A stretch of 64,000 bases of DNA from Gordius sp. MW1. Its lineage: Eukaryota > Nematomorpha > Gordioida > Gordea > Gordiidae. Positions 4,652 through 62,324 of this stretch are shown here, in pieces. A program made the position numbers and the translations under genes. Location of the stretch: contig OZ038533.1 in NCBI GenBank assembly GCA_964036665.1, forward strand, positions 11,988,413 through 12,052,412, written 5' to 3'. The notes under the pieces are model-generated. The model saw only the letters and a list, made by a program, of their open reading frames with translations. It had not been told where the DNA came from and searched no databases. Every line of letters begins with the position of its first letter. The first letter of the stretch is position 1.

Positions 4652-4895
4652 GGTTCAAAATGTCACAGTCCAAAATGTCACACGAATATCACGAAAAATT
4701 AAATCTCAAATGGGGAGGCAATTTGATGTACATCTAATCCTAACCCAACCCCTAACCTAAAACGCTGACCTAAAACACTACCCAATGGAAATTATGCGCT
4801 TGCGCAATGAGTAATTGCGAATCTCACGATCGTGAGATTCGCGAATCTCACGATGTGGCTTTGTTACATTTTGGACTGTGACATTTTGAAACGAT
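4652..4895. mobile_element. Inverted-repeat element with CAAAATGTCAC ends
   Basis: The left terminus is TTCAAAATGTCACAGTCC followed by AAAATGTCAC. The right terminus is its reverse complement (GTTACATTTTGGACTGTGACATTTTGAA). The loop holds CTAATCCTAACCCAACCCCTAA, a telomere-like stretch, and a perfect palindrome around ATCTCACGATCGTGAGAT at 4820-4838. I could not find a convincing target duplication. It ends about 60 bp before the KMT2 start codon. Confidence 0.65.
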
Positions 4896-4953
4896 ACCAT
4901 TTTATAATAAACATATGAAAGGTCTATGAAAAAAGGTGCAAAGTTATTTTGAT

Positions 4954-5692
4954 ATGTTCTCAGAGAACCCTTCTGTTTCTGACAAAGAAAGTTCCATCAA
5001 AGTATCGGAAGGTGATTGCTTTGATCAGGATAATCAATCTCAGACCAGTAATTCACTATCTTCTTTTGATGTTGATGTTTTCAATGACAATGCATCAAAT
5101 GAGTAATTTGCATTTAATATATATATTTTAAATATAAAATTAGGGGAAATAATTATCCTAAACTATGCAGCATGTGCTATCTTAGTGAGAGCAGTATGCT
5201 TGGTCAGGGTCATTTGTTGAGATATGAACCAACTGATAACTTTGATGTTTTTAATATAGAATTATATCAATCAGCTTTCTCAGATATAAGTAAAAAAGTA
5301 ATACAAGAGAAAATTGGTATTGATGATAATAGCAAAGGGTCTAAACCTATATATTCTGTAAGAAGAAGTAGGGGGTCAAAGTAAAAAAAATTATTACACG
5401 ATTATTTATGTATTAGAAATTTTTTGAAATTAAAGAAAAGAAATTCTCACTTTACGCAAGATCCTCCAGGTTTAGATGAATTAAAGGCCATAGGATTTCC
5501 ACCATGTTTAGATATCAATGCATTCTTTGAGAAAACAGGTAGAATTTGTGAAATAATTATAAAGTTTTAGGTCATACATGGGCTCATGAGTTTTGTGCTC
5601 TATGGTCAAATGATGTAATTAAATCTAAAAATTTGGAGAACAAAACATTACTATCAAATGTTGATAAAGCTGTTATAAATGGAATAACTCAG
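4954..5692 (+). other. KMT2 N-terminus, exons 1-4, start of first extended PHD
   Basis: Exon 1 opens MFSENPSVSDKESS and is rich in Ser and Asp. Exon 2 (5171-5380) carries GHLLRYEPTDNFDVFN. Exon 3 (5441-5538) carries FTQDPPGLDELKAIGFPPC. Exon 4 (5571-5692) reads HTWAHEFCALWSND and NVDKAVINGITQ, the W-H-CA-WS zinc-binding half of the extended PHD. Introns are 68, 60 and 32 bp and all phases match. The in-frame TAA at 5382 falls inside the second intron, so the frame is not broken. Confidence 0.82.
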
Positions 5693-8600
5693 GTATATTG
5701 GTATTCTACTTAATTTGATGTGATTATTTTATGTAAATAAAATAGATATTTTAATTACATAAATTAATAGATGTTTGCCTTTTATACTATATATAAATAG
5801 CAATGTGTCATATGCAAAAATTTTGGGGCCACCATCTATTGCCATGTTGAAACTTGTGATGCTAAATATCATTTACCCTGCGCAACTTCTTCGGGGTGCC
5901 TGTTATATTTTTCCATAAAAGCTACTATATGCTTTGACCATTTGAAACTATCTAAAGAATTAGGTAAAATCTAAAATTATATTTAGTATAGCCCAAATGT
6001 ATATTTACATAAATTTTAGGATGCCAAATAGTTTGTAAAATATGTTTAAAAGATGAACAATTGGAAGAAATGCTCTCATGTGTTGTCTGTGGAGCTTATT
6101 GTCATTATAACTGTTTATTACCATTAGCAACATCTAATGATCTTTCTCCTAATTTTAGATCTGGTTGGCAATGTATTGAATGTAAATCCTGTCAAGTTTG
6201 CAAGTAATATATTAATGATGCAGTCATATTTTTTCCCTTACTGAACATTCTATAATATGTCTATTTTAGGTTAAAAGATGACAAAACAAGAGTTGTAATA
6301 TGTGATGATTGTGATAAAGCATTTCATATACATTGTCTCAAGCCACCACTTCTTACAATTCCAAAGAATGGATGGAAGTGCAAAGTATTTTCATAGTTTG
6401 CTATTTACATAATTTTTTTTTATTAAAATGAGCATTATTATAGACTAATAAGTGTAAGAGATAAATTTAAAATGTATTGAAATCTCTCCACTATTATTAT
6501 TTATACTTTTATGTCTAGATACCAAAATTCATTAATATTTTCACTATTATTAAACCTTCATTGGTAGATGTCATTTTTAATACTTGCTGGTATGCTTGAA
6601 AATTTAAGGCATTATGTATTTTAAATTGAGATGGGAAGTTTTAAACATTTATTGTTAATGATAATTAATTTAAGCTCCGATATAATATCTGTGAGCATAA
6701 TTTAAATTCATAAACAAGCATAGGTATATAAGGTAAAAACTATATTAAATGCCTTATAGTGTAAACCATTGCAACCTTTTTTGCTTCAAATTTAAAAATA
6801 TATTATCAAAAAAATTATTATTAAATTTGGGAAATTAAATAAAAGACCAATAGACCATGAATTTTTTACCCTTCTTTTAATTTTATAAATAATATTCAGT
6901 ATAAACCCAACTATTTATATTTTATTATGCAGGCTTTCATATCTTAGTTAGGCTTAAATCTTTATTTTTAAAAAAGGCCATTATAAAATAGTGTAGTGTA
7001 ACTTATATATTAGCTACCCATATTTTTATCAATTTACACTAAACCTCAAACTTACCGTGGGTCGTCAAATTATAAATTTGATATTTTTATTAAATATGAA
7101 GGTGTTGTCAATTATATAGGAAACAATATGTTTCATTTATTTGTTTAGAACTAAATAATGCTCTATCTTTGAGGGTTGCTTATCTGTGTATCTTTTCGAT
7201 TTTATGTCGTATATTTTTCCAAATAAAATATAAAATATTTCCTGGAAATTTCCTTGTCGGTTCCTTAAAAAACTCGATTCTTAAGTCTGGCAAATTTGAG
7301 ATATGGAAAATACGTATTTTTCATCATGTCAAAAAGTTCGTAGAATTGAATTATCATCATCATTTTTAGAAATTTCCTCGTGTTCTTCTAAAACAATCTT
7401 AGTTGATAATGTTTTTGATATAATAAATAGATATTCTTGGAATGTTTTAACATGGGGAATAAGTATGCTTCAGTTCAATTAGAAAGCTCCATTATATCCT
7501 AAATCGACATCTTAGGCAATATAAATGAATTAACCTTTGGCGTAGCCAGCAATGAGATTAGAGGGGGAAATAATGATTTATGGATGGGCAAAATGATCAT
7601 TTTGTGAAATTTTAGCCATAATTTTAATAAATTGCAACAAATTTTTGGATTTAGAAGGGGGTAGCCGCTCCTCCCTGCCACCCCTTTTGGCTATGCCCAT
7701 GAACCTTTTTATCAATAAGTCGCCTTTGAACTCTTTAAAAGCGGTAATATTTTGACACTTTTCGCATGGTTGATTAGATGGGATTAAATTGGATTATATA
7801 CATGATAAATGAAGAATCCCGAGCCGAATTGTTGGCAGTGTTTTTTGATTTAAATTGTATTATATGTGGTAATAATATTGGGGCGTGGAGTTGGAATAGG
7901 CTTTCTCTTTGAACAAGAGCTTGCGGGTTCAAATCCCGCTTTTGCCACTTTTCTTTTAAAAGATGTAAAATATATTACATCGTGAACACGGCTGTCAGGC
8001 CAGGATAGCCGAACATCATCCAGATATCCAAAGAAGCTGACCACTTTAGTGTGACAAACAGCTATTGCAAATTTTTATAAGTGTTAAAAACTATAATTTT
8101 AAACTTGAAAAGATTTGGGTAGGTTCAGCATTAGATAAGATATTTTGGCCATAATAGAATGTCGAGATGTCGGCAATGACCAATTTTCACCTTTGATTGC
8201 CCACCTCGAAGAGTAGTGGTCAAATATACTTTCAGAAAATTAATATTTTTAAAAAAATGATAATCGTTTTTTCTAATCGCATATAAGAGAATGCCCTCAC
8301 CTCCGCCACATGTTTTTTTGAAAGGTAAAAATATCTTGAATTATATGCACCTAAAACCAATGGAGGTATAAATAAGCGCTTTTTATCGTAATTCTTCCCA
8401 GCAAGTTTTGTGGTCATTTAAAACTCGCTTAACAAATTTCAAAAACAATCCCACATTATTTCACCTAGATATTCTAGTCCTTAATGATTCCAGATATCTG
8501 TAATTCAACTAAGACTAACGCTAAGCTTAGAGGTCCACTAAGAAAAACAAACCAAAAGTTTTTGTTTAGTCGACTAACTTTAAAACTTGAGCTACAAAAG

Positions 8601-14600: not shown

Positions 14601-17600
14601 TTGAATCGGATATTTAGACAAAGATAAATTCGCGCGATTTGAATCTGATTTCGATATTAAGACAAGGTTTAAGACAAATTTCTTTTTAGACCTAATTAGG
14701 TATTAATTTGCTTAGTTTTAGCATGTAATTTTATTAGCCTACGTACAAATCCTATTCGGCGATCGGTGATTCTGGTATCCTCGTTCCCAATACTCTCGCC
14801 TACAAAACTCTGCACAAAATACATAATCCGATGACGCCTGATAAACTTCCAATATTAATTACGACAAAGTCTTTCATTTGCAGCGAAACAAAGTTGACAA
14901 AGTACAATTCGAATCGCAACGCGCTGGAAAACTATTTGCCAATCGTGACGAGTACATCAAATATATTATGCCAGCGTTCATTTATAAATTAACTTTCAAC
15001 TTCTTTTAAGATACATTGTAGTTATAAATTATGATGACCAATAATTTTTGCTTAGCTTTACCTCAAATGAACACGAATGACATTGAGGCCTTACTTGGGA
15101 ACGAATCGGATTTCCTGGAGATTTATGGTGGCCTTTCAAAAAACGGTTTGTTTAAAGGTACTTCTAATCGATAATATCATTAACTTTGCGAATATTGTTT
15201 TGTTAGTGGTAAATGGTAAAGATTGTTCTCTATATAGAGTTTTTATACTCTGTAACTATCTAATTACATCTAATGTGTGCGCTGTTTTAACTGGTAGCCT
15301 CGAAACAAGTTACGTTGGGGTTCAACGCGCCCACTTCAACCTCAATATGTCTGCAAAACACGGAGTCGATGGAGATCTATTCTGGGGATATAAGTCCACA
15401 ACTCTCTTCATCTCTATCTTACGAATACTCCGCTAGCATAGACGACGCTTGTTTGTTAGCCCACTCACCCTTTACCCCGTATATAATAAATTTTAAAATC
15501 AAACGGCTATTATATCATCAATTTGGGCAAAGAATAATATGATGCTTGCTTTACTAAATACTTGTTTGGATAGGCATTAAATATAGAGAAAGATTAGTCT
15601 CATTAAGCAGCCACATTTTTCGCAATATTTAGGACTTAGTTATTTATATCGAGAAAGTGATTAATTGTCAGGCATTTTATGAGATCACTTTCGGGTCCAA
15701 CTTGTTGGCTTATATTGAGGGCCACTATGAATCTTTTTTACTGCTATGCAATTTATTTGATTTCAAATAAAAAAAATGATGACCGCTAAATCATATTTTA
15801 ATTTGGGAATCTTTTTAATATTTTTTATAAATTTAAGCTTGTTTAACTTCTACAAATGATTAGATTTTGTTATTGATTAACGGGTAGGTTTCTTGTCAAA
15901 TTAAAAATATTAGGCGTTTGTGTTAAACTTGGAAACTTCCTGGAAAATACAGCATCTCGATTAACTTAAGGTAAAAATCTTTTATATTTGATTAGGGATC
16001 AATTTAATCAAATAACTAGTAGCACTCAAAAAAATTTGCAAAGATGGAAGAAAGATGAGGCACTTGGAATCTTAGCAACCATCTCGCCCGTACTTTATGC
16101 CAACATTCGGCATCCTCGGCTAAAATCGGAATACCCTGGTAATTTTTTTTGCCAGAACTGCGTTGGTCGGGTTGGGTCGTTGAGACCCCAAGCGTTAAGA
16201 TATTTCAAAAAAATTTATGGGCAGTTCAATTTATTCGCTTAATATTATAATCACCAACTCAAATAACGACATTAGATAATAATTTACGTGTGAAAGTTAA
16301 TGGGTTATATCTAAAAAGTTTTACAAATTTATTATTGAAAATTGCTTGCTATGGATTTTTAAAATTCGAGTATAACTATACCCAACGAGTGCTAGATATA
16401 CCCAACGAGTGCTAGAAAATATAAAATGATTGCCATTTACCTTATCGTACATGTTGTTTCTTTAGATTTCTTGTTTAAATTATCTTGTTTACAATTTTAG
16501 ACATGATCGAACGTTCAAAGCAAATCGCTAAACTATGGAGAAATATAACACCCGAGGAGAGAATTCCTTTTTTAGTAATCAGAGTTAAAATTATATTTAA
16601 CAAAATTACAAGATTTGTATCTACTTAAATATATGTACATATATATAATTTAGCAAAAAGCTAGAGAAAACCGGGCAATATTGAGAGTTCAGAAGTCTCA
16701 GCAAGTAATAAATAAAATTTTGAAAAATTTACTAAATTTTTTTGATTTTAAACGCATTTATATTTTATATTAAAGAAAACGTTGGAGCACCAGATCCTCA
16801 CTTCGATGGCATCGGTAATTGGATATATATATTATTATAAAACAATTATTTAATCGCCTGTACTGTTCAAATTTTTATAATTTTTGTTATCATTTTTTAT
16901 TTATTTATTAAATAAAAGATGATAAAGAATACTATTTTTAATCTTTAAAAGCTTACTATTTTTAACATTTTTATAGTTGAACTATTTTGCATAATAGCTT
17001 ATATTTTATTACTAAACCAATAAATTTTGAAAAGCGGTGTTTTTTATAGTTTTATCCAAACACTTAAATGCAAAAGTCTCAATAATCGATATTTTTTTAA
17101 ATAAGCAATTACAACCTCAAATTGACCCAATGCTAATAATTTTAACGATGATAAAGATTCACAAAATTTAAATAATATTAAAGATTGTTGGATTGTTGAA
17201 TCATTTTTGAAATAAATCATAGACCGTTTAAACACTAATGAGGAGTAATATATCCCCGTTTCAATATATGCCCTTAATGTAGTTGAAAACGCAATGTCAC
17301 TATTTGACAATTTTGTATAAATTTAATCATCATACTTCATGAAAGTTATTATTAAATCTAAATTCTTCCATATAAATTTTGAGACTCAATGAATTTTTAC
17401 AATAATTAATCACATTATTTTTAGGCATTATCCATTGCCACGCTTAATAATAGTTTTATTGAAAAATTAAAGGGAACTTTCCTTGTCTATTTAACATTCA
17501 TATAACTAGTCTTAAAGGCTTATTTTTGTTGTACTAAATGTAAAATAACTTGACTATAATTTGTGCTAATGTTTATCAATGTTTCGAGCCTGATGATTAT

Positions 17601-29153: not shown

Positions 29154-29947
29154 TTGTAAAAAATTTGAACCATCCGATTTTATTGTTTGTAGTTTACTTA
29201 TTATTAAACTGTCTTGCTTTCCTATTTATGTTGATCTAGATCTTCGATCGTAGATTCACAAGGGAGTGTTTAACTTCATAACCTTTTTATTTCAATGGCT
29301 AGATGTTATTTATTTAATATCCGAAAAGTTTAGTTTAAGGTAAGTTATAAACGATTTTTAAAAATTTGAGAAAACCATGTTCTTAGGCAGCTTTAATTAT
29401 TTATAACTTCGTATTTTAAGTGTATTGACAATGGCAAGGCAAGCCAATAAATTTTTTAATTTGTATTCGATCCCGTCTGTTTTATAGGTGTGAAACTTAC
29501 AATCTCATTTAATTCGTTTTTAAGCAACACTTTACTTTGCTGTGCAATTTTTAGGAAGGTAGTTCTTCCTAAAGCGGAGGGGAAGGCGTAATGCAAAGCA
29601 TTTTCTATGATTAAACGATAAAATATTTATTAAGCGCCCCCCGGCCCCGTGCTTGTTTTTTTGGCCCTTAAAACTTGGCTCTTTTAAACTTCATAGGGAA
29701 ACAGTTATGTAATGTAAGTTAAGCAGGGGTGAATAGAAACGGACCTTAAAGTTTGGGGGCCAGGGCCTGGCTACGTGCCTGCAATAAATCTTTAAAATAC
29801 TCAATTTAGTTAGTTAGCATTTTATATATAAATTTTAAATTGCATTATCTTCTTATTTTTTATCATACATATATAAGGTCCCACAATCGTGGGGTTTGTG
29901 CTAATAAGCTTATTTCTTCTTGATCGCGTAAGCGACATGTTTTGTTG

Positions 29948-30135
29948 GATAGGGGTCAAAGTAGCAGAACGATGAAAAAGTAGCAGAAAAATATGAATTT
30001 TAGATAATCAATATATTAGAATTAAATCTCAAATTGGGAGGGAATTTGATGTGAATCTAACCCTAACCCTCCTGACCAATCTTGATCAGTTCTGACCAAT
30101 TTGGCTGCTTTTTTCTGCTACCTTGACCGGTTCCC
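29948..30135. mobile_element. 188-bp inverted-repeat element with 9-bp TSD
   Basis: The left end is GATAGGGGTCAAAGTAGCAG. The right end is CTGCTACCTTGACCGGTTCCC (imperfect inverted repeat). It is flanked by a perfect 9-bp direct repeat GTTTTGTTG at 29939-29947 and 30136-30144. The interior contains CTAACCCTAACCCT and shares TTAAATCTCAAAT-GG-AGG-AATTTGATGT with the element at 4652. A 9-bp duplication is typical of Mutator-like transposons. Confidence 0.82.
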
Positions 30136-30516
30136 GTTTTGTTGTATCTTCTTAGTTTTCTTAACTACTTGCCTTTTCCATGTGATACGAGGTCGTCCTC
30201 ATCCTCTGTTCTCCGTCCGGCACCTCCGGGTACAATACTTTTCGACATCATTCGTCTTAGTATATGACCATAACACCTTAGCCGATTTTTATTAATTAAG
30301 TCCGTCATAAATCATAAACCCACTTTGATGCCTTAAGCTTATAAACGCCTTGATACAAAGTAAAGGGAAAAATGTTTCCCTGTTTTTTTTCTAATTAGAG
30401 TGACTAAAACTCGGCCTAGCTAAACCCGGACTAATCACAGTTTAAACATATTTTTATATTAATCCGTTAAATATGAAATCTGTGCGAATAAATGTCTTCA
30501 CCTATGTGGATAATAT

Positions 30517-30968: not shown

Positions 30969-33900
30969 CTAAAACAATTAAAACGAAATGAAGTTTGTAA
31001 ATCTAACTAATAAGCAATTTTTTTAATATGTAAATGTCTAAAGAAATTTCAAATTATAATTAAAAAAACTCGGGCCTTCGGCCCTCGTGGGAAGGGTGAG
31101 AAGGGAAGGGAAGAGGGGAAGAAAAGGGGGGACGACTCATCTGTACTTCGTATAAATGTATCATATTTGCTATGCAATTTATGGGCGAGAAAGGTGGGAA
31201 GGGGCGAGAATGCCTATAGGGGGGTATTAAATGACTAATGATTAATTAATTATTTATACAAATTTTTCATTATAGGCAAAATGTAATAAAGGCAAAATGT
31301 AATATAGGCAAGGGTTAGGGTTAGATTTAGTGTTTGCATCTAGTTGCGTATTACATTAATTTTAATGGCCTTTAGAGATTATGGGTCTAACAAACATTAT
31401 ATTATAAAACAACACAATGTTAAGAATTTGCAGAATTGTTGGGAGAAATTTTTTGTTGAATTTGAAAATTTTTAATTAAAAAAATCAAAAATTTGGCCAA
31501 TGGTCACTTTTTCTCTATTGGTCAGTACCAACAGATACTCTATAAGTCAATTATAGCCAAAAAAACGGGAAAAAAAAAATTTTGATGCTCACTTTGGCCA
31601 ATGGTCATTTTTTTCCATTGGTCAGCAGCCAGCACACGGTAAAAGTGGATATAAATTCATAAAAGTTAAAAAAACGAAAAAAAAATTTTCGAATAACATT
31701 TTGGCCAATGGTCATTTTTTTCCATTGGTCAGCAGCCAGGACACGGTAAAAGTGGATATAAATTCATAATAGTCAAAAAAAACGAAAAAAAAATTTTCGA
31801 ATCACATTTTGGCCAATGGTCATTTTATTCCATTGGTCAGCAGTCAGCGGACGGCCAAAAGGTCATAATAGCAATGGTAGGAACAGGAACAATCATAATA
31901 GTAAAAAAAAAACAAAAAAAATAATTTCGATTTACATTTTGGCCAATGGTCATTTTTTCCATCGGTCAGGAGCCAGCGGACGGCCAAAAAGTCATAATAG
32001 CAATGGTAGTAACAGGAACAATCATAATAGTCAAAAAAAAACGAAAAAATAAACTCGGATTCACATTTTGGCCAATGGTCATTTTTTTCATTGGTCAGCA
32101 GCCAACGGACGGCCAAAAAGTCTTATTATCAATGATAGTAACAAGAACAATCATAAGAGTCAAAAAAACTCCGGGATTCTAACCCAAAAACTAGTTAAAT
32201 TGCATAGCAATTAAAAGTAAACAACTTTTATTTATGTTTATTATATAACATTGGGCAGCAGCCAGCGGACGGCCAAAAAGTCATAATAGCAATGGTAGAA
32301 ACAGGAACAATCATAATAGTCAAAAAAAAACGAAAATAATAATTTCGATTCACATTTTGGCCAATGGTCATTTTTTTCATTGGTCAGCAGCCAGCGGACG
32401 GCCAAAAATTCTTATTATCAATGATAGTAACAAAAACAATCATAAGAGTCAAAAAAACTCCGGGATTCTAACCCCAAAACTAGTTAAATTGCATAGCAAT
32501 TAAAAAGTAAACAACTTTTATTTATGTTTATTATATAACTAGTTAAATCGCATGGCATTAAAAGTAAACAACTTTTATCTAAAAAACTAGTTAAATTGCA
32601 TAGCAATTAAAAGTAAACAACTTTTATTTATGTTTATTATATAACTAGTTAAATTGCATAGCAATTAAAAGTAAACAACTTTTATTTATGTTTATTATAT
32701 AATAGATAATTTAACAAATCTTATATATAACACACCGAGGTAGAGAGAGATGAGGGGTGGGGCACCTCTTTCTCATGTATTAATTTAAAAAAGGGATAAC
32801 CTAATATACCCAATGCAAATAAATAGGAGGGTAACGGACGGACAACGGACGGACGGACGGACAACAAAAAACGAGCCCATAAATTGCATAGCAATTAAAA
32901 CCCGATTTGATAATCCTAGCAATAAAATTTCGGCAGGGAGAAATTTTGGTTAAAATTTACAAGTGAATTATATTTTGCGCTTTAATCCGGGAAGGTTTGT
33001 TTAACCCCCCCCCCCCCAGTAATCCTGTCGAAAGTCGTTAAAGCTAACTGGGAGCACAGACTTATAATTGGGATCAGATTGCAATCTCTGATAATGAAAT
33101 CTTATCAATAAATTTTATGATGCTTTTTCTTCATAATAAATTCCAAAATATTTTAATAATTATTAATTGCTATGCAATTTAACTAGTTTTTGTTATATAA
33201 TAAACATAGATAAAAGTTGTTTACTTTTAATGCTATGCAATTCAACTAGTTATATAATAAACATAAATAAAAGTTGTTTACTTTTTAATTGCTATGCAAT
33301 TTAACTAGTTTTGGGGTTAGAATCCCGGAGTTTTTTTGACTCTTATGATTGTTCTTAATACTATCATTGATAATAAGAATTTATGGCCGTCCGCTGGCTG
33401 CTGACCAATGAAAAAAATGACCATTGGCCAAAATGTGAATCGAAATTATTTTTTTCGTTTTTTTTTTGACTATTATGATTGTTCCTGTTTCTACCATTGC
33501 TATTATGACTTTTTGGCCGTCCGCTGGCTGCTGACCAATGTTATATAATAAACATAAATAAAAGTTGTTTACTTTTAATTGCTATGCAATTTAACTAGTT
33601 TTTGGATCCCGGAGTTTTTTTTGACTCTTATGATTGTTCTTGTTACTATCATTGATAATAAGACTTTTTGGCCGTCCGTTGGCTGCTGACCAATGAAAAA
33701 AATGACCATTGGCCAAAATGTGAATCCGAGTTTATTTTTTCGTTTTTTTTGACTATTATGATTGTTCCTGTTACTACCATTGCTATTATGACTTTTTAAC
33801 CGTCCGCTGGCTCCTGACCGATGGAAAAAATGACCCTTGGCCAAACTGTGAATCGAAATTATTTTTTTCGTTTTTTTTGACTATTATGATTGTTCCTGTT

Positions 33901-36900
33901 CCTACCATTGCTATTATGACTTTTTGGCCGTCCGCTGGCTGCTGACCAATGGAATAAAATGACCATTGGCCAAAATGTGATTCGAAAACTTTTTTTTCGT
34001 TTTTTTTGACTATTATGAATTTATATCCACTTTTACCGTGTCCTGGCTGCTGACCAATGGAAAAAAATGACCATTGGCCAAAATGTGATTCGAAAATTTT
34101 TTTTTCGTTTTTTTTACTCTTTGAATTTATATCCACTTTACCGTGTGCTGGCTGCTGACCAATGGAAAAAAATAACCATTGGCCAAAGTGAGCATCAAAA
34201 TTTTTTTTCCGTTTTTTTGGCTATCATTGACTTATAGAGTATCTGTTGGTACTGACCAATAGAGAAAAAGTGACCATTGGCCAAATTTTTGATTTTTTTA
34301 ATTAAAAATTGTTCAAATTCAACAAAAAATTTCTCCCAACAATTCTGCAAATTCTTAACATTGTGTTGTTTTATAATATAATGTTTGTTAGACCCATAAT
34401 CACTAAAGGCCTTAAAAACTAATGTAATACGCAACTAGATGCAAACACTAAATCTATTAACCCTTGCCTATATTACATTTTGCCTTTATTACATTTTGCC
34501 TATAATGGAAAATTTGTATAAATAATTAAGTAATCATTAGGCATTTAATACCCCCCTATAGGCATTTTTGCCCCTTCCCACCTTTCTCGCCCATAAATTG
34601 CATAGCAAATATGATACATTTATACGAAGTACAGATGAGTCGTCCCCCCTCCCTTCCCCTCTTCCCTTCCCTTCTCCCCCTTCACACGAGGGCCGAAGGC
34701 CCGAGTTATTTTTATTAATTATCCATCCTTCAATTAATTATTTTATTTAGACTAATATTTGGCTACGCTTTAAGGATTGTGACACGAATAGGGGTGTAGC
34801 CAGGGGGGGGGGGCAGGGAGGGGAGGCTGCCCTCCTCTAAATCCAAAAATTTTTTGAATTAATAAAAATTATAGCTAAATTTCAAAAGATCATTTTTCCC
34901 TCTTTAACTCATAATTACCCCTCTCTAATTGCAATGCTGGCTACGCCCATGCACCCGGAGATTCTAGTAGGATGCAAAACAAATTCAAACATTGTGAGAA
35001 TTCATCTTTCATATTAAAAAAACGAAGGAATTAGAGATGAAAAAATTTGTTGTTTAATTTTCGACTGTTATGTTATGACACACATTTGTTTTGTCAAAGA
35101 ATTTTATTAGCTAAAGTCCAAGCGTGCTATAGTGATTTTGAGCTTCAGCGGGCCTATACCCTTGCTTTTTATCAGCTGTTTACAAGATTATGGTATTATT
35201 AGCCTTGATTCGGACTGTCAAAAATCCGGCAAAAAATGCCCATAGCGAATTATTCCAAATAGTGTACGTTAATGTTTATAATTTAATGCCTAGAATTTAT
35301 TAACAAGTTTTTTTTTATAAAAATTCACATAAAACTGATTTTTATCTTAAAGTTATTATTCGAATTTAACTAGGATATTTCAATCTATAAACTGTAAAAA
35401 TCAACGAACCCTAGATAAAGCCCAAATTTCTAAGCAAAAATATAATATATATTTTGGATATAAATTACCATAGCAGTTTTGTAAATGGAAACGCAATTGG
35501 CGTTGTTTATTATCTTTGAACAAAGAATTTCACACTCTCTTTGAAGACCATCTAATAGAAAAAAATTTGAGGCTGCCATTAATTCCAAAATAAAGTTGAG
35601 ACTTTGATTCACAATCGAATCAATTTTGCCACTATATAAAAATTCCATGATAACCTAAATAAAACAAAAATAATGTAAATTACTGGGCAAAAAATCAACA
35701 TTTACCTTGAATATTGCGTATCTTATTTCAGGAATTTCTATAATATTTTGTGTGCCTTCAGCAAACTTGTTTGATAACATTGCCTTAAATCGCGGCGAAG
35801 AGTTGACTAAGATAATTTTGTGTCCATAAAAAATCTGACCCTCAACCAAAAATGAAATATCCGATAATTCGGAGCTATTGACATAGCAGGGGTCTACGTA
35901 AGATAAATAAGTAAATTATATATTTTTTTTATTATTATTAATATACTTTATTTTTAAATCATCTTAAATAAAATTAAATTTAATTATACATTATTATAAA
36001 TATCAGGAAAACATTCATATATCGCGATTGAATTGTATTTACAAATTCAAATGTTGAGCATTTTTAACGTCAACGATAATAATCAAACTCTTAGACTACT
36101 TACCAATTAGCGTTGAGCGTAACGATTGTGTGGTCCTAGTAATAGCAGGTATTATGTCCTCATTCGACTTAATTCCACTAGTATAACATGTCGAAATTAT
36201 GCGAGAAACTAAAATAAATGTTGAAGGTACGTCAGAATAACAGGATTTCGAGTCAACCCTATGTTTGTTGTATTTGTTATCATCCTGCAATAAAAAGCAA
36301 TCATATTTATAACTTTTTTATTTTAAATACACACTTAAAAATATGATATTAAGGTTTATTAAATCTAAATATCCAAACTCCCTAACATTTATTTGAATAA
36401 CAAAGGAATCGTAGACGATAAATGATTCTGAGTCTTAATTTAGTTTTAGCCTAATTATTCAAAATTTAATGGACAAACAAATAAATTTCTTGCTAATAAA
36501 TGTTACAAAACTATATAAAGTTAATAAATGTAATTGATTGCGCCTAGATATTATTTTGGGAAAATTATCTAACATTAAAAATTTGTTATATAAATTTTTT
36601 CACGACGCAATTGCGTTGAAATTATTAATTTTTTATAGGTTGAAGGACGTAGAGATTAAATTTTGTTTTAATCATTTGAGAAGGGAAAAATATAAATTGA
36701 CAGTCTGTAGTACCTTAATTAAGCTTAGTTCTTGGTAGTCAAGCGACGATTCATAGAATATGTCTAGTAAAATAGGCAAAGCGATCTCCATCAACTCTGG
36801 TATATTAACTTCTTCCAGTTTAATATTTGTAAAATCGGATAGAATACGAATTAAGAATTTTTCTGACAAGCATGGATCGTCATAAACATTCAAAAGGCAT

Positions 36901-42900: not shown

Positions 42901-45900
42901 TTGTAAAAGGATTTAAGATCAAACAAACCGATAATCTCTTTATATATGCAACAAAAACTTCGTCTTTAAAACATCATCACATCAGGTATAATTAATAGCA
43001 TTACACAATAAAAAAATTAATTAACCTTAATATAGATGGAGGAGGGTAATTGTTGTTTGGCAGTAGAAGAGACACTGCCTGAAAAACATCTTCTGGCAAA
43101 ATACAATTCCCATCTCTATGTTCCGCGAACCCAGTTATTGTCATAATCCAATTGTATAAACTTGGTCTATAAACCAAAACATTTGGGGTCCTGATCAAAT
43201 CACACTCAATTTAAAAATCGTTAAAAAATATATAGGCAAATGTTTTAAATGTGAATAAAAAAAATTTATAATAAATATTTAATGGTTCTCATATTTAATT
43301 TAGTGTTTTTATTTATTATTTAAACACAATGTTATAAGCATAATTATTTTTAAAAAATCATTAGAAAATAGTGAGTATAAGCCATATTAAAATTTAGCGG
43401 ATTCGTAAGTAGACTTAACATTTTCCCTTGATCTTATAAACAAACAAAAATTTTGAATGCAAAATTAAACGCTTATAAAGGGTCATCATGCGCAGCCGCC
43501 TAAACCCGAGGCCAATGTTACACGATCCAAATTCTTGTACTGTATGAGCGATCTGACATTCCATTTTCTTATTCGATCCTAAAAATAACGAAGCGCCGAT
43601 TTGTGTTTTTCGCATTCGGAAAAACACAAATCGTGAGAAATAAACAAAATTTCTTATTCACGTTTTCATATTGTGATTTCGGTCTCGCAAGGGCAGGTTT
43701 TGTAGGGTTAGGGTTAGGTCTTTTTAGGTTCAAGATACATAATCACTTTCTTTGGATCGAATAAGAAAATGGAATGTCAGATCGCTTATACAGGACAAGA
43801 ATTTGGATCGTGTAACATTGGCCTAAACCCGACCCATGGGAAATGTAAAAAATATTCTCTAGGTACCCCGGGTCGGGCACATTCATAATGGAAATTATTT
43901 TTTTTAATACAGGTTATGGCAGTTTGTTATTTTATATTTAGCAAATCGGAGAGCAAGTCAAAAGTTAATCTCATTTCTACAAATAATTTCGATTTTATGA
44001 TAGCTATATTCTATAGACATATAGCTATAATTTCTTATCATTAAAGATTTACTCGTTTATAAGTAAACAATTAATATAAATAATATTCAAGCCATACTTT
44101 AGATGAAATGCATATTTTTTGGAATACCTTAGATTTGAAAAATTATTATGGTGACGACCAGCGTTTAAATGGTTAAGGCTATCAATGCCGATGAAGTCGC
44201 AGGAATGCTTTCGCTCAAATCTTTTGCCCTTGTTATCACTATCTTTAGCAATAAATTGGTCCGTCAGTGACGTAAGCCATCCTTTACAATTACACTTTGA
44301 GGAGTCATTATTGTTTTGAGATCCACTTGACAAGCTAACAAGATTTAGAGCAGATGTTTGAGGACAGCGAAAATAATGAAACAAAACGCGGCTGGCTTCT
44401 CTTGTCCAACTCAATGGTCCATTATGTAGGCACCGTGATATTGACAGGTCATTATAGCCATGCCTAGTAGGTAAACTGTGGCTATTGAAAGGCACACTTG
44501 CCTTATCAGCGATACTGTGATAATTTCTAGACGAAGTATCCCAAGGATACCCCTGATAATTATCTTCAAAATGTGTACTATCGTGTAATCGAGATTTGCG
44601 GTTAAAGGAACTTAAACGCAAGTTGATTTGATAATTTGGGTTTGTCCAAAGAAATTGTGATATCATGTGAATATGATTACCTAAAGATTAAATTAATAAA
44701 TATGGTAATTAAAAATAGCCCAAATAATTTATGTCACTTAAAGTTGCTTAACCCTCGAGAGTATTCGTGGGGTATTTTGGTACCCCACGCAAATTATAAA
44801 TTTAAATATAAAACGCATTTTAAGTCTAATGAATCTGGCCTTTTCAGTAGCTTAATATTTTATCAAGAACTAGGTTAGGTGAAAATTCATAGGTTTTGGC
44901 TTAATACTTTTAAAATATAGAAGCTTTTTGGCTCGTGGGGTTCTGTTATACCCCACAAATACTCTCACGTAAGTTTATTTCTATATGAAAAAATGTATGT
45001 ATTTTTTTATATGAAGATATCTTTTACAATTTGTGTTTTTAATACATTTTGAACATTCTTTTAATAAAAAATCACGTTTATTTTGATTTATTTTAAGGTA
45101 TATGATGTCAACAGGTAAAATGAGGGGAAGCTCTAAAATAACCAAAATAAAAATGGGGGTCCAGAAAATTGTTAATAAGTTTTGTAATGTTGATTATATT
45201 TATATCAAAATTTATACCATCAATCTTAAGACCTTCATAAACATATGTTCAAAATTTCAAAGGTTTTAAAGGAATGCTTTAAAAGTTATAAGAAGTTAAA
45301 AAGTGGGGTAGAGTTATACCCCACGAATACTCTCGCGTTCGTGATTTTTAGGAATACTCTCGAGGGTTAAAAGAAATTGATAAAAGGGTCAGGATTAGGC
45401 AACAAACAAAAGAAAATAAATGAATTTATGTTTATACTTGTTGTTTCAAAATCCAATGAACAAAATGTGTTACAAATTTCATTAATATTCGTGATGGATG
45501 TCATGTTTGTATTTGCTTTTTCCTTTAAATCTACCATCTCAGGCCCATTTATAAAATCATTAAATATTTCAGATTGCAAATTGGTTGGGGTATTATGCTT
45601 AAATTTGGCGACAGCCATATGGATAACTTTGCCGTTGGGTGTCAAGTGTCCCATTTCTTCCTTTCTTAACAAGTGTCTGTTGTCTATGGTATTAAAAATT
45701 AAGTTATATGTTAAACCAAAAAGGCAAAATTATATCTAAATTTACTTACAGCAGTCCATGGCTGATTGTAAGATCGATGCTACATTAAGGGGAACTTGAG
45801 GGTGACCTAGAAGCAAATTGACAAGAATAAATGTATCAGCTAAAATCAGCACATCTTGTAAACAGAGAGTATCCGTGTTCGACATAAATCGGTTGATCAA

Positions 45901-49747: not shown

Positions 49748-52700
49748 ACTCGGGCCTTCGGCCCTCGTGGGAAGGGGGAGAAGGGAAGGGGAGTAGGGGA
49801 AGGGAAGAGGGGAAGGGAAGAGGGGAAGGGGGAACTCTTCTATACTCCGTATAAACGTAGCATATTTGCTATGCAATTTATGGGCGAGAAAGGTGGGAAG
49901 GGGCGAGAATGCCTATAGGGGGTATTAGATGCAAAATAATTAGTTAATTAGTTATAGGCCCTTGTAGGGGAGGACATAGGGTAATTATCAATGTTAACCA
50001 ATTCAAAAACGAAAAAAAATTTCGATTTATTTGGCCAATGGTCATTTTTTTATTGGTCAGTAGCCAGCGGGCGGTCAAAAATTCATATTATCATTGGTAT
50101 TAACATGAACAAATATTAATTTAATTTAAAAAAATTAAAAAAAAAATTTGTGCCCTCACTGACTTGAACCCCACACCTCCAGTTCACAAGCCGGCGCTAT
50201 AACCACTATACCATGCTGGCTTTAAAATAGTAGAAGTTATTATGTTATTTATATAGATGATGAAATAATAAAGTTGTGTTTTATGTTTAGAAAATCAATA
50301 TATATCGTCGGTCAGTAGCCAGCGGACGGTCAAAAAGTCATATTATCAATGGTATTAACAAAAACAAAAAATTAATTTAATGTAAAAAAAAAATTAAAAA
50401 AAAGTTTTTTTTTAGTTTTAAAAAAGGGCTAAATTCTTAAACTACCAGCCCGATTCGCTCGAAACTTTACCCGTAGGTGCCCAGGGCGGCCGGGGGTAAA
50501 ATAACCTTTTCAGATTCCTAAAATACCTTTTCATTTTAAAAATATCGGACATTTCCCTGCCACACGTGCGGTGTAATATCTATGACACGTAGAAAAATTT
50601 TACTAATTATATAAACTTACGCGCGCCATCTAATAAAGTACAATTCGTGTCTGAGTTTAATAGTAGATTCAATTTAATTAGAAATAACGGGCTATGCTTA
50701 TACCTTTGAAGGAGGTTTCGAATTTTGTGTTAGTTTCTATCGATATATTTTATCGTAAATTAGAATCTAATACCTATATTATTTTTTTAAATATTACTTT
50801 TTAGGTTTTCTATGAAATCACAATCTAATTAAATGAAATATATTAACCCAATAAAAAAATATATATGCATTTATAAGGTTAAAAATATATATTACATAGT
50901 TGGCTGTCTGTTAGACCATCTATAATAAATTTTTAGGTTATATATAAAATTTGGCCAATGGTCATTTTTTTCATTGGTAAGCAGCCAGGACACGGTAAAA
51001 GTGGATATAAATTCATAAGTCAAAAAAAACGAGAAAAAAAAAATTTCGAATCACATTTTGGCCAATGGTCATTTTTTCCATCGGTCAGGAGCCAGCGGAC
51101 GGCCAAAAAGTCATAATAGCAATGGTAGTAACAGGAACAATCATAATAGTCAAAAAAAAACGAAAAAATAAACTCGGATTCACATTTTGGCCAATGGTCA
51201 TTTTTTTCCATTGGTCAGCAGCCAGCACACGGTAAAAGTGGATATAAATTCACAAGAGTAAAAAAAACGAAAAAAAAATTTTCGAATCACATTTTGGCCA
51301 ATGGTCATTTTTTTCCATTGGTCAGCAGCCAGGACACAATAAAAGTGGATATAAATTCATAATAGTCAAAAAAAACGAAATAAAAGTTTTCGAATCACAT
51401 TTTGGCCAATGGTCATTTTATTTCATTGGTCAGCAGCCAGCGGACGGCCAAAAAGTCATAATAGCAATGGTAGGAACAGGAACAATCATAATAGTCAAAA
51501 AAAACGAAAAAAATAATTTCGATTCACATTTTGGCCAATGGTCATTTTTTCCATTGGTCAGCAGCCAGGACACAATAAAAGTGGATATAAATTCATAATA
51601 GTCAAAAAAAACGAAATAAAAGTTTTCGAATCACATTTTGGCCAATGGTCATTTTATTTCATTGGTCAGCAGCCAGCGGACGGCCAAAAAGTCATAATAG
51701 CAATGGTAGGAACAGGAACAATCATAATAGTCAAAAAAAACGAAAAAAATAATTTCGATTCACATTTTGGCCAATGGTCATTTTTTCCATCGGTCAGGAG
51801 CCAGCGGACGGCCAAAAAGTCATAATAGCAATGGTAGTAACAGGAACAATCATAATAGTCAAAAAAAACGAAAAAATAAACTCGGATGCACATTTTGGCC
51901 AATGGTCATTTTTTTCATTGGTCAGCAGCCAACGGACGGCCAAAAAGTCTTATTATCAATGATAGTAACAAGAACAATCATAAAAGTCAAAAAAAACTCC
52001 GGGATTCTAACCCAAAAACTAGTTAAATTGCATAGCAATTAAAAGTAAACAACTTTTATTTATGTTTATTATATAACATTGGTCAGCAGCCAGCGGACGG
52101 CCAAAAAGTCATAATAGCAATGGTAGAAACAGGAACAATTATAGTAGTCAAAAAAAAACGAAAAAAATAATTTCGATTCACATTTTGGCCAATGGTCATT
52201 TTTTTCATTGGTCAGCAGCCAGCGGACGGCCAAAAATTCTTATTATCAATGATAGTAACAAGAACAATCATAAGAGTCAAAAAAAACTCCGGGATTCCAA
52301 CCCCAAAACTAGTTAAATTGCATAGCAATTAAAAAGTAAACAACTTTTATTTATGTTTATTTATAACTAGTTAAATTGCATAGCATTAAAAGTAAACAAC
52401 TTTTATATTTATTATATAACCAAAACTAGTTAAATTGCATAGCAATTAAAAGTAAACAACTTTTATTTATGTTAATTATATAACTAGTTAAATTGCATAG
52501 CACAACTTTTATCTATGTTTATTATATAATAGATAATTTAACAAATCTTATATATAACCATTATATAACACACCGAGGGAGATAGAGATGAGGGGTGGGG
52601 CACCTCTTATGCATAGCAATTAAAAATAACACAGCGAGGGAGATAGAGATGAGGGGTGGGGCACCTCTTTCTCATCCATTAATTTAAAAAAGCGATAACC

Positions 52701-52820
52701 TAATATACCCAATGCAAATAGATAGGGTAACGGACGACGGACGACGGACGACGGACGACGGACGACGGACGACGGACGGACACCAAAAAACGATCCCATA
52801 AATTGCATAGCAATTAATAG
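49748..52820. repeat. One-armed CCAAT-array repeat
   Basis: It starts AACTCGGGCCTTCGGCCCTC and a polypurine tract, then TTGCTATGCAATTTATGGGC near 49866. From 50945 there is an array of GGCCAATGGTCATTTTTT-CCATTGGTCAGCAGCCAG units, then AACTAGTTAAATTGCATAGC units, then an ACGGACG microsatellite (about 52733-52785), ending CCCATAAATTGCATAGCAAT. Unlike the 31068 copy, no mirror-image arm follows. Frames such as 51538-51825 are translations of the array. Confidence 0.82.
50151..50220 (-). repeat. tRNA-His(GTG)-like pseudogene or SINE head
   Basis: The minus strand reads GCCAGCATGGTATAGTGGTT, an anticodon-like loop TTGTGAA (GTG) closed by CCGG/CTGG, and GGGGTTCAAGTC as B-box. The A-box and B-box are good but the T-stem and acceptor stem do not pair, so it is probably not a working tRNA. 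It lies in the left, array-free part of the repeat at 49748. Confidence 0.5.
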
Positions 52821-54834: not shown

Positions 54835-57620
54835 TAGAGGTGTGCACGGATCAATCCGATCCGACATCCGATCCGTCCGAACTTGGATAGGATCGGATCA
54901 ACATCTTAATTTTGGAAGTCGGATCGTATCGCATCAACATTTCCTTTTAGTCGGATCGGATTTTTATATTTAAAATAAACAATAATAAGTTCTAATTAAT
55001 TAAATTAATAATTTTTAATATACCTTTTCATAATTATCTTTGCATTCTTTTTTTACTTTACCATTTTTGATGCCCAATACCACCTCTCACCCCTTACTTA
55101 CCCTAATATATTTATCAGTATTTTACTAGCGTTTTTCCCTAGCTAGACTTTCTTGTTTGGCGAGAAAGGAGCTAGTGTCAATGGTAAATCAGCATCTCTT
55201 GTTTCCTTTTTAGCATACGCATCTCTTTCTATCTCAACTCAACTCAACTCCGAAAATCATCAATCACAATCTCCCCTTTCCTTAAAGCACACGCGTAGCT
55301 ACTTTCCCTATTGATTCCGGGTAATCATAAATGATGTAGCTTGCCTTCTTAGAAGCAATCTCCATGGTGCAGGTGTATTGTCGTTGACGAGATGGTGTGA
55401 GTCATGCTGGCTTGAGGGGAAAAAATAATGGGGGGCGGGGGTGTAGGAAATAATCATTGGGATTCGTAACAGCTAGCAAATACAACAATATTGTTTATCA
55501 TATTAAAAACCGCCTTGGAAGAAATAATAAAAAAATTTAAAAGAAATATGCTTCAACAAGTTAAAAAAGAAGACGGAAAAAGTCAAATTTGGAGTTACTT
55601 TGACCTTCTAAATGAAAATGATACATATACCGGTTATGTTATCAGCAAGAAATGCCATCATATCTACACATATAATTCCATGAGGTAGTTCCCATCTTTT
55701 CATCATAAATGTATTCCAAAAACTTCAGCTAAAAATACAATTGACAATTACCAAACCTCTCGCTGAAATCACAAAATTAAAAAAAAAAAATTGAAAAGCA
55801 TCTAATTTATTTTATTTTATAAGATATTCGACCGTTTTCAATCGTTAACGGAGAAGGATATAGAGCAATGCTCCAAGAAGCTCTGAATATTGGTGCCATT
55901 CATGGTCATATAAACGTTGATGAATTACTTTCAGATAGGACTACCTTAAGTAAGAATACATCAAAACTTGCAGATGTAAGTAGAGAAGCATTAATATTAA
56001 AGTTACTCCCCCATTTAAAAGGAAAATCATGTTCAGACACTATCGACCTCTAGACAGATGACTTTGTCAAAATAAACTACTTAACATTTTCTTTACATTA
56101 TATATCCCTCGGAATCCTACATAAGCATATTCTTTTCACTTCAAAAATAGATGTTGAAAAAAAACAGGGGAAAATATTTTAAGAGAAATATCTGTAAATT
56201 TTGAAAAACTTCACATCCCACGGAATACACGAGATTGATAACTTACGTTACCGATCAGGGCTCTAACATGGTCAAAGTCTTGCAAAATCATAAGCGAATG
56301 AATTGCATGTCCCATTTACTGAATACAGTACTACGAAACGTATTCAATAAAATGATTTTACATTCCATTACCTCAGGTTAATGACTTAATAGAAGCATGC
56401 AAAAAGCTAACGACATATATGAAGCAAAGTGGCAAAAATAAACATTTAAATCATACATTGCATCAAGCAATAGAAACTCCAGACTCGATGTTTGAGAGCA
56501 TATTGAAGGAGTATAAGGAACTGACCACATATCTAGCTTCTATAGATATGCCAGAGAAGCTAGATATTGATAAAAATTTGCTGACCAAACTAATTGAAGT
56601 ACTCCGGCCGTTTAAAAAGGCTTTTAGTTCTGGAAGCTGATCAACACCCAACCTTTCACAATATATTGAATTACCAATTACTCAGTGACAATCAGACCAC
56701 GAGCAAACTGATGATTTTGAAGAACATTACGAAATTAATGATCTTAAAAAAGATATTTGCACCCTCAAGTCAAAATTTCTAATCACTCAACAACATAAAA
56801 TTGCCACATTTTTACGCCCAAATTATCGCCAACTCAGGATGCTCCCCCCAAATGAGTGAGTAGGCGTAATTAATGAAATAAGATCCACACTAGCGTCTAA
56901 TAATTTTTTGGTAGATTCTGCAACTGAGATTGAAAATTATGTGGCAAGTAGTAGTGATAGTTAGCCTCAAAAAAAGACAAAAAAGTAATTAACATACATT
57001 TAAATATGTATATATATTACAAAAAATAAATTATTTAATTTATATTTTAAAATAGTTAATCAATGGGAAGATGAGCAGGAAGAAGATAAAACCCCCGATG
57101 AAATCTCAATTTTTCGTTAAAAAATGAAGATTGCAAATATGATTTAAAAAATGATTTGCTGAAATGGTGGGTTTCATATCAAACAGTCCTGCCAAGGCTT
57201 TATAAGCTGGCAAATAAAGTTTTAGCTATACCTACTACCTCTACCACTTCGGAAAGAATTTCTTGGTGGCTGGAACAACGTTAGAAGAAAGAAGAACGCG
57301 AATTAAACCAGAAAATTTAGTTTCTTTATTATTTTTATATGATAATATGGAATTAGTCAAACATATTTTTTTATTTATTTCAGGTCTATTAAATTGCTAT
57401 ACCTTTTTTTAAATTTTGAATTTAATCATCAATAAAAAGTTCTGTTCGTAAAATTTTAATGTAAAAATTTCGGATCGGATTGGAGCGAATTTAGATTTTA
57501 AAAAACTCGGATCGGATTGGATTTAGATTTTAAAAAACTCGGATCGGATCGGATATAAAATTTTTCAAAAACCCCTCGGATCGGATCGGATCAAAAAAAT
57601 TTGATCCGTACACACCTCTA
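54835..57620 (+). mobile_element. hAT transposon, 2.8 kb, with perfect 8-bp TSD
   Basis: Termini are TAGAGGTGTGCACGGATCAA on the left and TTGATCCGTACACACCTCTA on the right. ACATGGGT flanks both sides (54827-54834 and 57621-57628). Subterminal regions are arrays of ATCCGATCCG / CGGATCGGAT. It holds a BED-finger and transposase remnant on the plus strand. The exact target duplication indicates a fairly young insertion; the coding region is broken. Confidence 0.94.
55491..57365 (+). pseudogene. Broken hAT transposase with BED zinc finger
   Basis: 55491-55688 contains SQIWSYFDLLNENDTYTGYV followed by ISKKCHHIYTYNS, a BED-type finger in which a Cys before KKC is replaced. 55835-56053 matches the RPFSIVNGEGYRAML to INVDELLSDRTTLS part of the transposase. 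56240-56640 includes CMSHLLN and LIEVLRPFKKAF. About 57150-57365 has LAIPTTSTTSER, then VAGTTLEERRTRIKPENLVS, the hAT C-terminal dimerisation region. Stops and frame changes separate these pieces, so no functional product is expected. Confidence 0.9.
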
Positions 57621-58280
57621 ACATGGGTAGAGTCCCAGCGGTGTCCAAAGGGTGGGACTCTTGGCAAGGTTTAGGGGGGGGGGCGATAGGCTCAAAAGGT
57701 TTTAATAAATGTTAAAAAACTCATCATAAGATGTTGAGACAGGATCTAATCGAGCAAAAAAAAAGAAAAAGATTTTGTCCTCGGGCAGAGCTCTGACAAA
57801 TTAAAAATTCACATATAGGTCAAGAAATGTTTTTATAATTTTATTATTAGGCTTTTGAAAAAGGTTCACAAAATTACACATTTTAATTTAAAAAAGTCGG
57901 GCCGAGCTTTAGTGGGGACTTATTATGAAAAGGACTTTGGTCTCGGGCCACAGACAAATTAATTTTAAATAGCGATCATTAATTTATTATTATTAATACA
58001 TACAAGTTGGACAAGACAGAGAAACAGACTTTCCTAGGAATGAACCCTAATTGAATAATAAAAGTAACTCCGCTCTATAACTAGAATCGGGTTTCCCTTT
58101 TATAATTTCAAGAATGTAATTAAAATTGAAGATCAATAATTATACAATTAATTTGGAGATAAAGCACAATAATAAACTTTAAAATTGTAAGAAAGCAGGA
58201 TACAGTATTTATTCAATGGCTTTGGAAACAAAAAGCTATATTTTTATCCGGCAAATTCTTATAAATATTTAGGCCAGAGG

Positions 58281-58942: not shown

Positions 58943-58950
58943 GCCAGATG

Positions 58951-59548
58951 TTATGCCTTCCATCGGAATCAACAATAAAAGGTAGAGTTCATCCTTGGAT
59001 ATAAAGCCACGTATAATTTTTTTAGCAAATATGCAATTATTTATTAAAATTTGTCTTTATATCAAAAAATGTAATGGTGTAATTCTAATTATAATGTTCC
59101 GTACAGTTTTTTTAAAGCCTACGTGATGAAATTAAAGATTTGTAAGAAAAAACGAATTCATATCTTTAATAGCTAAATGTATGGTGAATTTGCTATGCTT
59201 TAAAATATTTATTGGGATGGTAATCAACCTTCTGTATCGTGTATATGTACCCACAATAGTTGGGTTTATTTTAAACAATTTCTTGCGTCTTGATTTATTA
59301 AGAGCGATGTCAAGATTTAGCCTTTTGGTTATCATAACTATGTCCACTCGCCATTTCCACATAACAAAGAGCGTTGTCTTCCTCGGCACTTCATGAATAC
59401 TATTCATTTTGCATTATTAGCATCCCTTTTTAGTATATAACCATGCCCTTCTTAACCTATATTCGTTCCCCTGGCCGCCTAGGTGGAATACCCATTTTTG
59501 CGCTGAGAAAGTTATTAGTCATAAGGTCAAGGTTAGCATTGTATCCCT
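58951..59548. other. No recognised gene
   Basis: Two opposite-strand frames overlap at 59132-59407. The minus-strand one is basic (KSRRKKLFKINP) but has no motif I recognise and no supporting splice context. I do not call a gene here. Confidence 0.3.
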
Positions 59549-61323: not shown

Positions 61324-61546
61324 GTTAGTATACACCTAGCCTCCAGAGAATTCTCACCATCTTGGTGAGGAGTGGTTAGACACATTTATAGTAGAAATGA
61401 CTGACAAGTTTTTACAGAACAAATAAATACTTTTAGGTTCAACCTCTATTATTTATGAAAAAATGCAAAACTCTTATATATATTAATTTGTGATTATGCA
61501 TTTTAACATTAAATGGTTTTTAGAAAATTAAAATCCCCTTCACAAA

Positions 61547-61729
61547 TTGTACACCCTTAGCTGTGTCATACAGAGGGCATTACACAAATGCAATGGCAGC
61601 TGGCTCTACAAGGTGTTCCGCGATGTCCAAACACTAGGCCATGATTGGAATTCATTGCTGACCATCATGCAAGACAGGAAACTTTGGAAAGACTTCTCAA
61701 AAAACCATTTATTGCGGCTCTCTCATTAA
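61547..61729 (+). pseudogene. LINE reverse-transcriptase C-terminal fragment
   Basis: It contains FRDVQTLGHDWNSLLTIMQD followed by RKLWKDFSKN, resembling the (D-L---G--W-----AQDR--W+) tail found after the reverse transcriptase in RTE/CR1-type elements. Nothing upstream encodes the rest, so it is a 3'-end fragment. Confidence 0.4.
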
Positions 61730-61966
61730 GGATCTTCACACGGATTATTCATTTACGACATTATCATTAAAGCTTTACATTATTCTCAAGTCAATAGGTA
61801 TTACATATTTAAATGTCATAATTACATTGCATATTAACCATTTTATTACAGCATACTCACACACGTTATCACTAACGTGGCCTGATGCGCCATTTGGCGT
61901 TAAAAGGGGCTCAATCTTAGATTTCACTAACTAAGCTCTTGGGCGTCTTAGGGGCAAACATACATA

Positions 61967-62259
61967 GGACTAGGCTAAACATTCTCCAATTCTGGTGACA
62001 TATTTCATATCGTAAAATCGCGTTGCTTAAACGTTCTCTTACCGAGTGATAGAAAACAACGCTTTTGCGTTCATTAATTTAAATTTGATTAAAATTATCG
62101 AGAAAATATGAAATGATATGTATAAATACCCTAACTCTAACCCTAAACCAGATGAACGCAAAAGCGTTGTTTTCTATCACTCGGTAAGAGAACGTTTAAG
62201 CAACGCGATTTTACGATATGAAATATGTCACCAGAATTGGAGAATGTTTAGCCTGTTCC
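61967..62259. mobile_element. 293-bp inverted-repeat element with 9-bp TSD
   Basis: Arms of about 105 bp are near-perfect reverse complements (GGACTAGGCTAAACATTCTC on the left, GAGAATGTTTAGCCTGTTCC on the right). It is flanked by a perfect 9-bp direct repeat ACATACATA (61958-61966 and 62260-62268). The loop contains CTAACTCTAACCCTAAACC. It ends 66 bp before the CHRAC1-like start codon. Same architecture as the elements at 29948 and 43510. Confidence 0.9.
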
Positions 62260-62324
62260 ACATACATACATACAACTCTACGTCCCACTTTGTCATTGTG
62301 CTTATTAGCGCAAACTTATAAAGT

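Follow-up and report, generated by a model that had tools for sequence, protein, structure and literature searches.

Short telomere-like tracts inside non-autonomous transposons of at least two classes in Gordius sp. MW1

We analysed a 64,000-nucleotide stretch of the nematomorph Gordius sp. MW1 (contig OZ038533.1, C7:11988413-12052412; hereafter the window), in which five repeat elements, numbered 1 to 5 from left to right, hold short telomere-like tracts. The genome comprises 211.8 Mb in 12 contigs, and contig C1 starts in CCCTAA repeats, hence its telomere repeat is TTAGGG. Non-autonomous transposons of at least two classes, miniature inverted-repeat transposable elements (MITEs) of the type of Mutator-like elements (MULEs) and Helentron-like HINEs, carry short telomere-repeat tracts. 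Neither class is new, and in a literature search covering largely titles and the beginnings of abstracts we found no MULE MITE or HINE described as holding a telomeric tract. For element 5 the alignments show the tract to replace donor DNA at a rearranged junction. We give an even chance to the reading that the tracts are junction filler from the formation of non-autonomous elements, perhaps via telomerase, and were then amplified by transposition.

The window holds five exact telomeric runs that reach 10 bp or more, four of them within the five elements, which together make up 7.3% of its length. In 40 first-order Markov shuffles the mean was 0.62 runs per 64 kb, with a maximum of 3; it should be noted that the observed count is biased, because the elements had been selected for their tracts. 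The fifth run (3105-3116) also lies in a dispersed repeat (about 2995 to 3706, unstranded; 94.8% match to locus L080 and a partial match to L066), thus all five runs are inside repeats.

An earlier sequence-only reading of this DNA had reported telomere-like strings in five inverted-repeat elements. The strings are all present, the tract of element 1 being only imperfect, and the perfect 9-bp target duplications claimed for the three best-bounded copies were recovered in elements 2 (GTTTTGTTG), 4 (TAAACCCGA) and 5 (ACATACATA). These three are short elements with terminal inverted repeats (TIRs); judging from their sequence, they and the clan of families around elements 1 and 2 behave as MULE-type MITEs. 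The description does not hold for element 3, which consists of two inverted HINE-like copies without a 9-bp duplication.

The telomeric tract of element 5

Element 5 (61967..62259, unstranded) is a 293-bp TIR element with 108-bp arms and the duplication ACATACATA at 61958-61966 and 62260-62268. Its left end is followed by some 45 bp of donor interior, by the telomeric tract CCCTAACTCTAACCCTAAACC (62129..62149, plus strand) and by the right end. One further full copy (on C5, 96%) was detected among 40 scored of 122 candidates; with 40 scored per search, copy counts from the DNA searches given here and below are lower bounds. The ends of about 110 bp recur at 38 counted places, some as facing pairs, in longer elements.

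To place the tract we aligned it with this other MITE copy and with six ends of longer relatives, which come from five elements, two of them being both ends of the C4 pair. We also read a seventh end (L103), which was unlike the others and uninformative and was omitted from the alignment. The six ends contain no telomeric DNA: they match the interior of element 5 up to about ATGATATGTA, and beyond that point AAAAAGGGCGCACTGTTGTTTG... or a close variant of it fills the remaining 45-50 bp or so before the end (about 30 bp in C3). Both small copies instead read TAAATACCCTAACTCTAACCCTAACCC (window ...CCCTAAACC), followed by the end. At the junction itself the longer relatives have GGGCGCACTGTTGTTTG... 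or a close variant, while the MITE copies have CCCTAACTCTAACCC... in 2/2, so that a telomeric tract of about 21 bp replaces roughly 30-50 bp of donor sequence in both. As the longer relatives carry ordinary sequence where the small copies carry the tract, the tract lies at a rearranged junction. The tract of the C5 copy is closer to exact telomeric repeats than that of the window copy.

The ends of element 5 were also found near MULE domains, with six end-MULE pairs at distances of up to 16 kb where 0.73 would be expected. Two facing end pairs, C1:4317285/4324641 and C4:16929480/16945228, enclose MULE domains, which lie 952 and 995 bp from an end. MULE domains are frequently paired in inverted orientation, 2-19 kb from each other (C7:6519378/6524241, C3:21125586/21133541, C4:7533622/7535987 and others), which suggests transposases inside long inverted arms. 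One MULE domain is located 1.1 kb left of the window.

The HINE-like repeat, the cassette clan and element 4

Element 3 (3.6 kb) is made of two head-to-head copies of a dispersed repeat of about 1.8 kb. The left half (31068..32896, minus strand) has its 3' hairpin end at 31068, its 5' end near 32896 and a telomeric run at 31311-31324; the right half (33163..34705, plus strand) is a second, 5'-incomplete copy in inverted orientation with a degenerate tract, and the arms are 97% complementary. Sequence comparison revealed a third copy, without a tract, at 49748..52815 (minus strand) and a fragment at 885..1199 (plus strand) with its 5' end near 885. The repeat was found as single, inverted and tandem copies. 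No target duplication of 8-11 bp was detected at the outer ends of element 3, the best 9-bp match being 7/9 in AT-rich flanks.

The copies have the hairpin end CTCGGGCCTTCGGCCCTCGTG on one side and end near AATTGCTATGCAATTTATGGGC on the other, contain internal tandem repeats, and have a palindrome near the 3' end that gives the hairpin GGGCCGAAGGCCC. In 5/7 ends a subterminal inverted repeat GCCCATAAATTGCATAGCAA (at most 2 mismatches), which is the 5' end sequence in inverse form, is situated at a distance of 105-137 bp from the 3' end. The 3' flank starts with T in 7/7 ends and with TT in 6, and TT precedes 16/16 listed 5' ends (15 distinct places), where the 5' boundary is inexact and some of the Ts may be the element's own. 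Helitron_like_N domains are abundant in the genome (150 scored matches of 714 candidates). Going by its anatomy, element 3 behaves as a HINE of Helentron-like build. As far as excerpts of PMC4067079 describe them, Helentrons, HINEs and DINE-1 share with it the subterminal inverted repeats, the palindromic 3' end, the T-rich insertion sites and the tandem repeats; the subterminal repeat of the mite HINEs in that source lies closer to the 3' end, at 38-60 bp, and element 3 differs further in having a telomeric tract in part of its copies.

Seven 3' ends were aligned. L028 agrees with the rest as far as GCAAAATGTAATATA, where it switches to the internal repeats with no tract. L047, L069 and both halves of element 3 continue through the tract into a block of about 180 bp, the tract being degenerate in one half and one unit short in L069. 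L038 and the window copy at 49748 diverge in about the same zone and are also tract-less, which makes 3/7 ends without a tract. Junction placement of the tract is thereby suggested for element 3 as well. Genome-wide there are 4869 hairpin ends (2455+2414) and 2930 tract motifs (1475+1455), both at up to 2 mismatches; as the former outnumber the latter, a sizeable part of the copies is probably tract-less. Copies lacking the array, which the sequence-only reading had held to speak against its proposal, hence do occur in part, for the repeat of element 3.

Elements 1 and 2 belong to a clan of MITE families with a common internal cassette. Element 1 (family A, plus strand, GTCTTGGGTTCAAAATG... 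to ...CATTTTGAAACGATACC) had been placed at 4652-4895; alignment of 30 copies extends it to 4646..4898, or 253 bp. Its family gave 40 scored copies including itself (of 1337 candidates) at 98-100% identity, and no target duplication was found at the flanks of the window copy, although sister copies do have one. Element 2 (family B; 29948..30135, plus strand) is flanked by GTTTTGTTG at 29939-29947 and 30136-30144, and 40 places were scored (of 1388 candidates; 74-100% identity, some partial), 30 of which were aligned.

The cassette lies at 4697..4783 (plus strand) in element 1, where it was recognised by a 34-bp head pattern and has a degenerate CCCTAA tract, and, by sequence comparison, at 30020..30071 (plus strand) in element 2, with an exact telomeric run at 30057-30070. 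It is composed of AATTAAATCTCAAATNGGGAGGNAATTTGATGTNNATC, then CCCTAA-like units that vary in number among clan copies, and then in most relatives CTAAAACGCTGACCTAAAACACTA(A)CCC. The core already noticed as common to the two elements amounts to about 50 bp in register within the window and is longer in better-kept relatives. The statement that the terminal repeats of the five elements are mutually different needs correcting for this pair, whose ends by eye share the register ...G/T-TCAAA... and are not wholly unrelated.

Genome-wide the 34-bp head was found at 939 places (470+469) at up to 3 mismatches, against 0 for the control. Thirty loci were read and sorted by eye and pattern, giving about eight kinds of outer ends around the cassette; families B and C are close relatives, and loci L038 and L051 hold a further kind, which has in common with the others only the TGTGCATC-plus-tract half. 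Among 86 distinct clan copies an exact duplication together with TIRs was seen at 8, 9, 10, 11 and 12 bp in 59, 42, 16, 2 and 3 cases; the 9-bp form occurs in 20/37 copies of family A, 16/34 of B, 1/5 of C, 3/4 of D, 1/1 of E, 1/2 of G, 0/1 of F and 0/2 of the unclassed copies. Between families the p-distance is 0.060 for the cassette head, a lower bound because the search pattern picked well-kept cassettes, and 0.660 for the adjoining outer 40 bp (84/86 copies; the 2 unclassed ones omitted). Within families the values are 0.035 for the head and 0.054 for the flanking 40 bp, with 0.021 and 0.015 in family A and 0.052 and 0.099 in family B.

Since the cassette is far closer between families than its flanks, the clan families are, as read from these alignments, modular, with a constant middle and changing ends. 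By the same comparison, elements 1 and 2 did not each capture the tract afresh but carry it within a single inherited cassette. Mu-type families usually keep their ends and vary their middle, and the clan reverses this pattern. It also offers a case for studying how transposons swap ends.

Element 4 (43510..43823, unstranded) is a 314-bp TIR element with 77-bp arms, a telomeric run at 43703-43718 and the duplication TAAACCCGA at 43501-43509 and 43824-43832. We scored 40 of 400 candidate copies, the window copy among them, and all 40 are close to full length with 95-100% identity. The target duplication is itself telomere-like (CCTAAACCC), possibly by chance.

The interstitial 13-mer DCTAACCCTAACC, a form impossible from a pure telomere array, occurs 3310 times in the genome (1658+1652) against 14 (8+6) for the reversed control. 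This number counts copies of a few amplified families and not independent events, and it misses most of the clan copies read, where CATCTAATCC is the commoner form. Among the 100 places at the top of the list (on C1, up to 5.17 Mb), 74 have the motif of element 3, 12 are of the TGCATC type (relatives of element 2) and 14 are neither. We also considered the tracts as remnants of subtelomeres, which was unsupported, as the motif places listed are well inside contigs (cassette head on C1-C2, TGCATC-type tract on C1-C4, tract motif of element 3 over the first 6.5 Mb of C1). Six TGCATC-type tracts at C2:5566509-5657502 are spaced 16-19 kb apart on alternating strands, which hints at a large inverted or tandem duplication.

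Origin of the tracts

If the tracts arose as junction filler, the course of events could be as follows. A double-strand break would occur within a transposon end, a few TTAGGG units would be supplied at the break by telomerase or by a telomere fragment, and the end would be rejoined with the loss of some 30-50 bp. A product like element 5 retains its ends, so a transposase supplied in trans could copy the healed element, tract included, to many sites; MULE and Helentron proteins would presumably be the ones to mobilise it. In the clan of elements 1 and 2 the tract would have become part of the cassette, now inside about eight kinds of ends. We infer telomerase as the source of the filler, and a captured telomere fragment would look identical. 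The cassette and element 4 may share the origin of element 5 by analogy, as a tract-less relative is known for neither. The sequence-only reading had offered capture of telomeric repeats at element formation as one of two explanations; this is supported for element 5 by its junction tract, is suggested for element 3 and does not apply to elements 1 and 2 as fresh captures. Further, we speculate, with considerable doubt, that telomerase has been a recurrent midwife, in that breaks in MULE- and Helentron-like elements healed with TTAGGG filler gave rise to new high-copy families, one of them founding a telomere-bearing cassette that later acquired its roughly eight kinds of ends.

Several observations weigh against the filler origin. 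Tract-less relatives are not among the known relatives of the clan cassette or of element 4, hence the junction argument rests on element 5, of which there are two MITE copies, with weak help from element 3. In the latter we take the change to have been a gain of the tract, and the tract-less copy could instead be the derived state. Seen from the same end, the two MULE domains nearest to element 5 ends lie on different strands, which leaves the link of these ends to a MULE transposase likely, not proven. Comparison of 29900-30200 and 31040-31700 (elements 2 and 3) with Rfam, up to E 10, gave no telomerase RNA family, though a diverged telomerase RNA could escape such a search. The G strand of the exact run ends in GGGTTAG in the cassette and HINE lineages and not in elements 4 and 5; as a telomerase signature this phase is not significant, since at least 2/4 lineages would show it by chance in about 13% of cases. 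The genome-wide enrichment reflects copies, not origins, with just four or five independent lineages, and the tracts hold just 2-3 repeats, so slippage or chance founding is possible.

Such a founding by chance, in which the founders happened to hold a short CCTAAC-rich stretch that amplification then made look special, seems to us rather improbable. The exact tracts of 10-16 bases, the small number of lineages, the uninformative phase and the over-representation expected for any motif in a high-copy repeat all fit it. On the other hand, the five exact runs of at least 10 bp, where 0.62 per 64 kb would be expected, sit in five different repeats, and the tract of element 5 substitutes donor sequence at a junction. 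We consider it about equally doubtful that the tract is functional, selected independently in several lineages because a Myb/TRF-like telomere-repeat protein, or some other host factor, binds there and aids transcription, placement or replication. The same motif, even in the same ATCTAACCCTAACC phase, is indeed present in two unrelated abundant classes, and the cassette is much better kept between families than the sequence adjoining it, but the search pattern itself favoured well-kept cassettes. Variation is alike in cassette and flank within family A and about twofold higher in the flank within family B, so any extra constraint is slight at best; the repeat number also varies among copies, and many HINE ends are tract-less.

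The other explanation in the sequence-only reading, a single Mutator-like superfamily with telomere-like sequence as an internal part, is largely refuted and we regard it as very improbable. It draws on the TIRs and 9-bp duplications of elements 2, 4 and 5 and on the MULE domains present in the genome, and it fails on element 3, with its Helentron/HINE anatomy and missing 9-bp duplication, and on the six ends of longer element 5 relatives, none of which has the tract.

For the filler origin there is precedent outside transposons, described here and in the comparisons that follow from excerpts of the cited papers. In mammals, breaks that received telomeric filler and lost bases have been documented, and among the changes seen in the flanks of interstitial telomeric insertions deletion is the most frequent (65/130 loci in rodents and 13/25 in primates; Table 1, PMC2246262). 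These interstitial telomeric sequences (ITS), including TERC-ITS, resemble our elements in having a short tract at a repaired break, often with a flanking deletion, and in decaying from exact repeats (PMC2246262). They are single loci compared between species, whereas here the repaired transposon then multiplied, and TERC-ITS carry a fragment of telomerase RNA, which was not found beside the tracts of elements 2 and 3.

Among mobile elements, the Mutator-like elements and MULE MITEs of PMC6446971 are alike in their TIRs and 9-bp target duplications, and MULE domains occur near the ends of element 5. Rotifer Terminons (PMC6431247) likewise hold or abut short telomeric stretches, but they are retroelements in which such a stretch is found at the 3' end or point of truncation and is tied to attachment at chromosome ends; in the present case it is internal to DNA elements along the chromosomes. 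The highly conserved domains of short interspersed elements (SINEs), and the V domain in the MER6 MITE (PMC6887750), resemble the cassette as conserved central modules with different ends; those are SINE modules, and we found no known relative of the cassette, though none was systematically sought. GTCYn MITEs with microsatellites (PMC6947457) also have a simple repeat inside a MITE, in that case non-telomeric.

The birth of MITEs from full-length transposons is not a settled matter, and a telomeric tract left at the junction would act as a legible scar that identifies the repair pathway. A further consequence would be that transposons, and not chromosome fusions, can spread thousands of interstitial telomere-like sites, which matters where such sites are used as evidence of fusion.

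The window further contains tandem repeats unconnected with the elements discussed, at 16377-16416, 40506-41168 and 57462-57591. A SET domain at 27948-28391 (plus strand) was the sole Pfam match among eight scanned open reading frames, and this putative exon suggests a gene for a chromatin regulator. Long same-strand open reading frames upstream of it, from about 9.5 kb, may be exons of one large KMT2-type gene.

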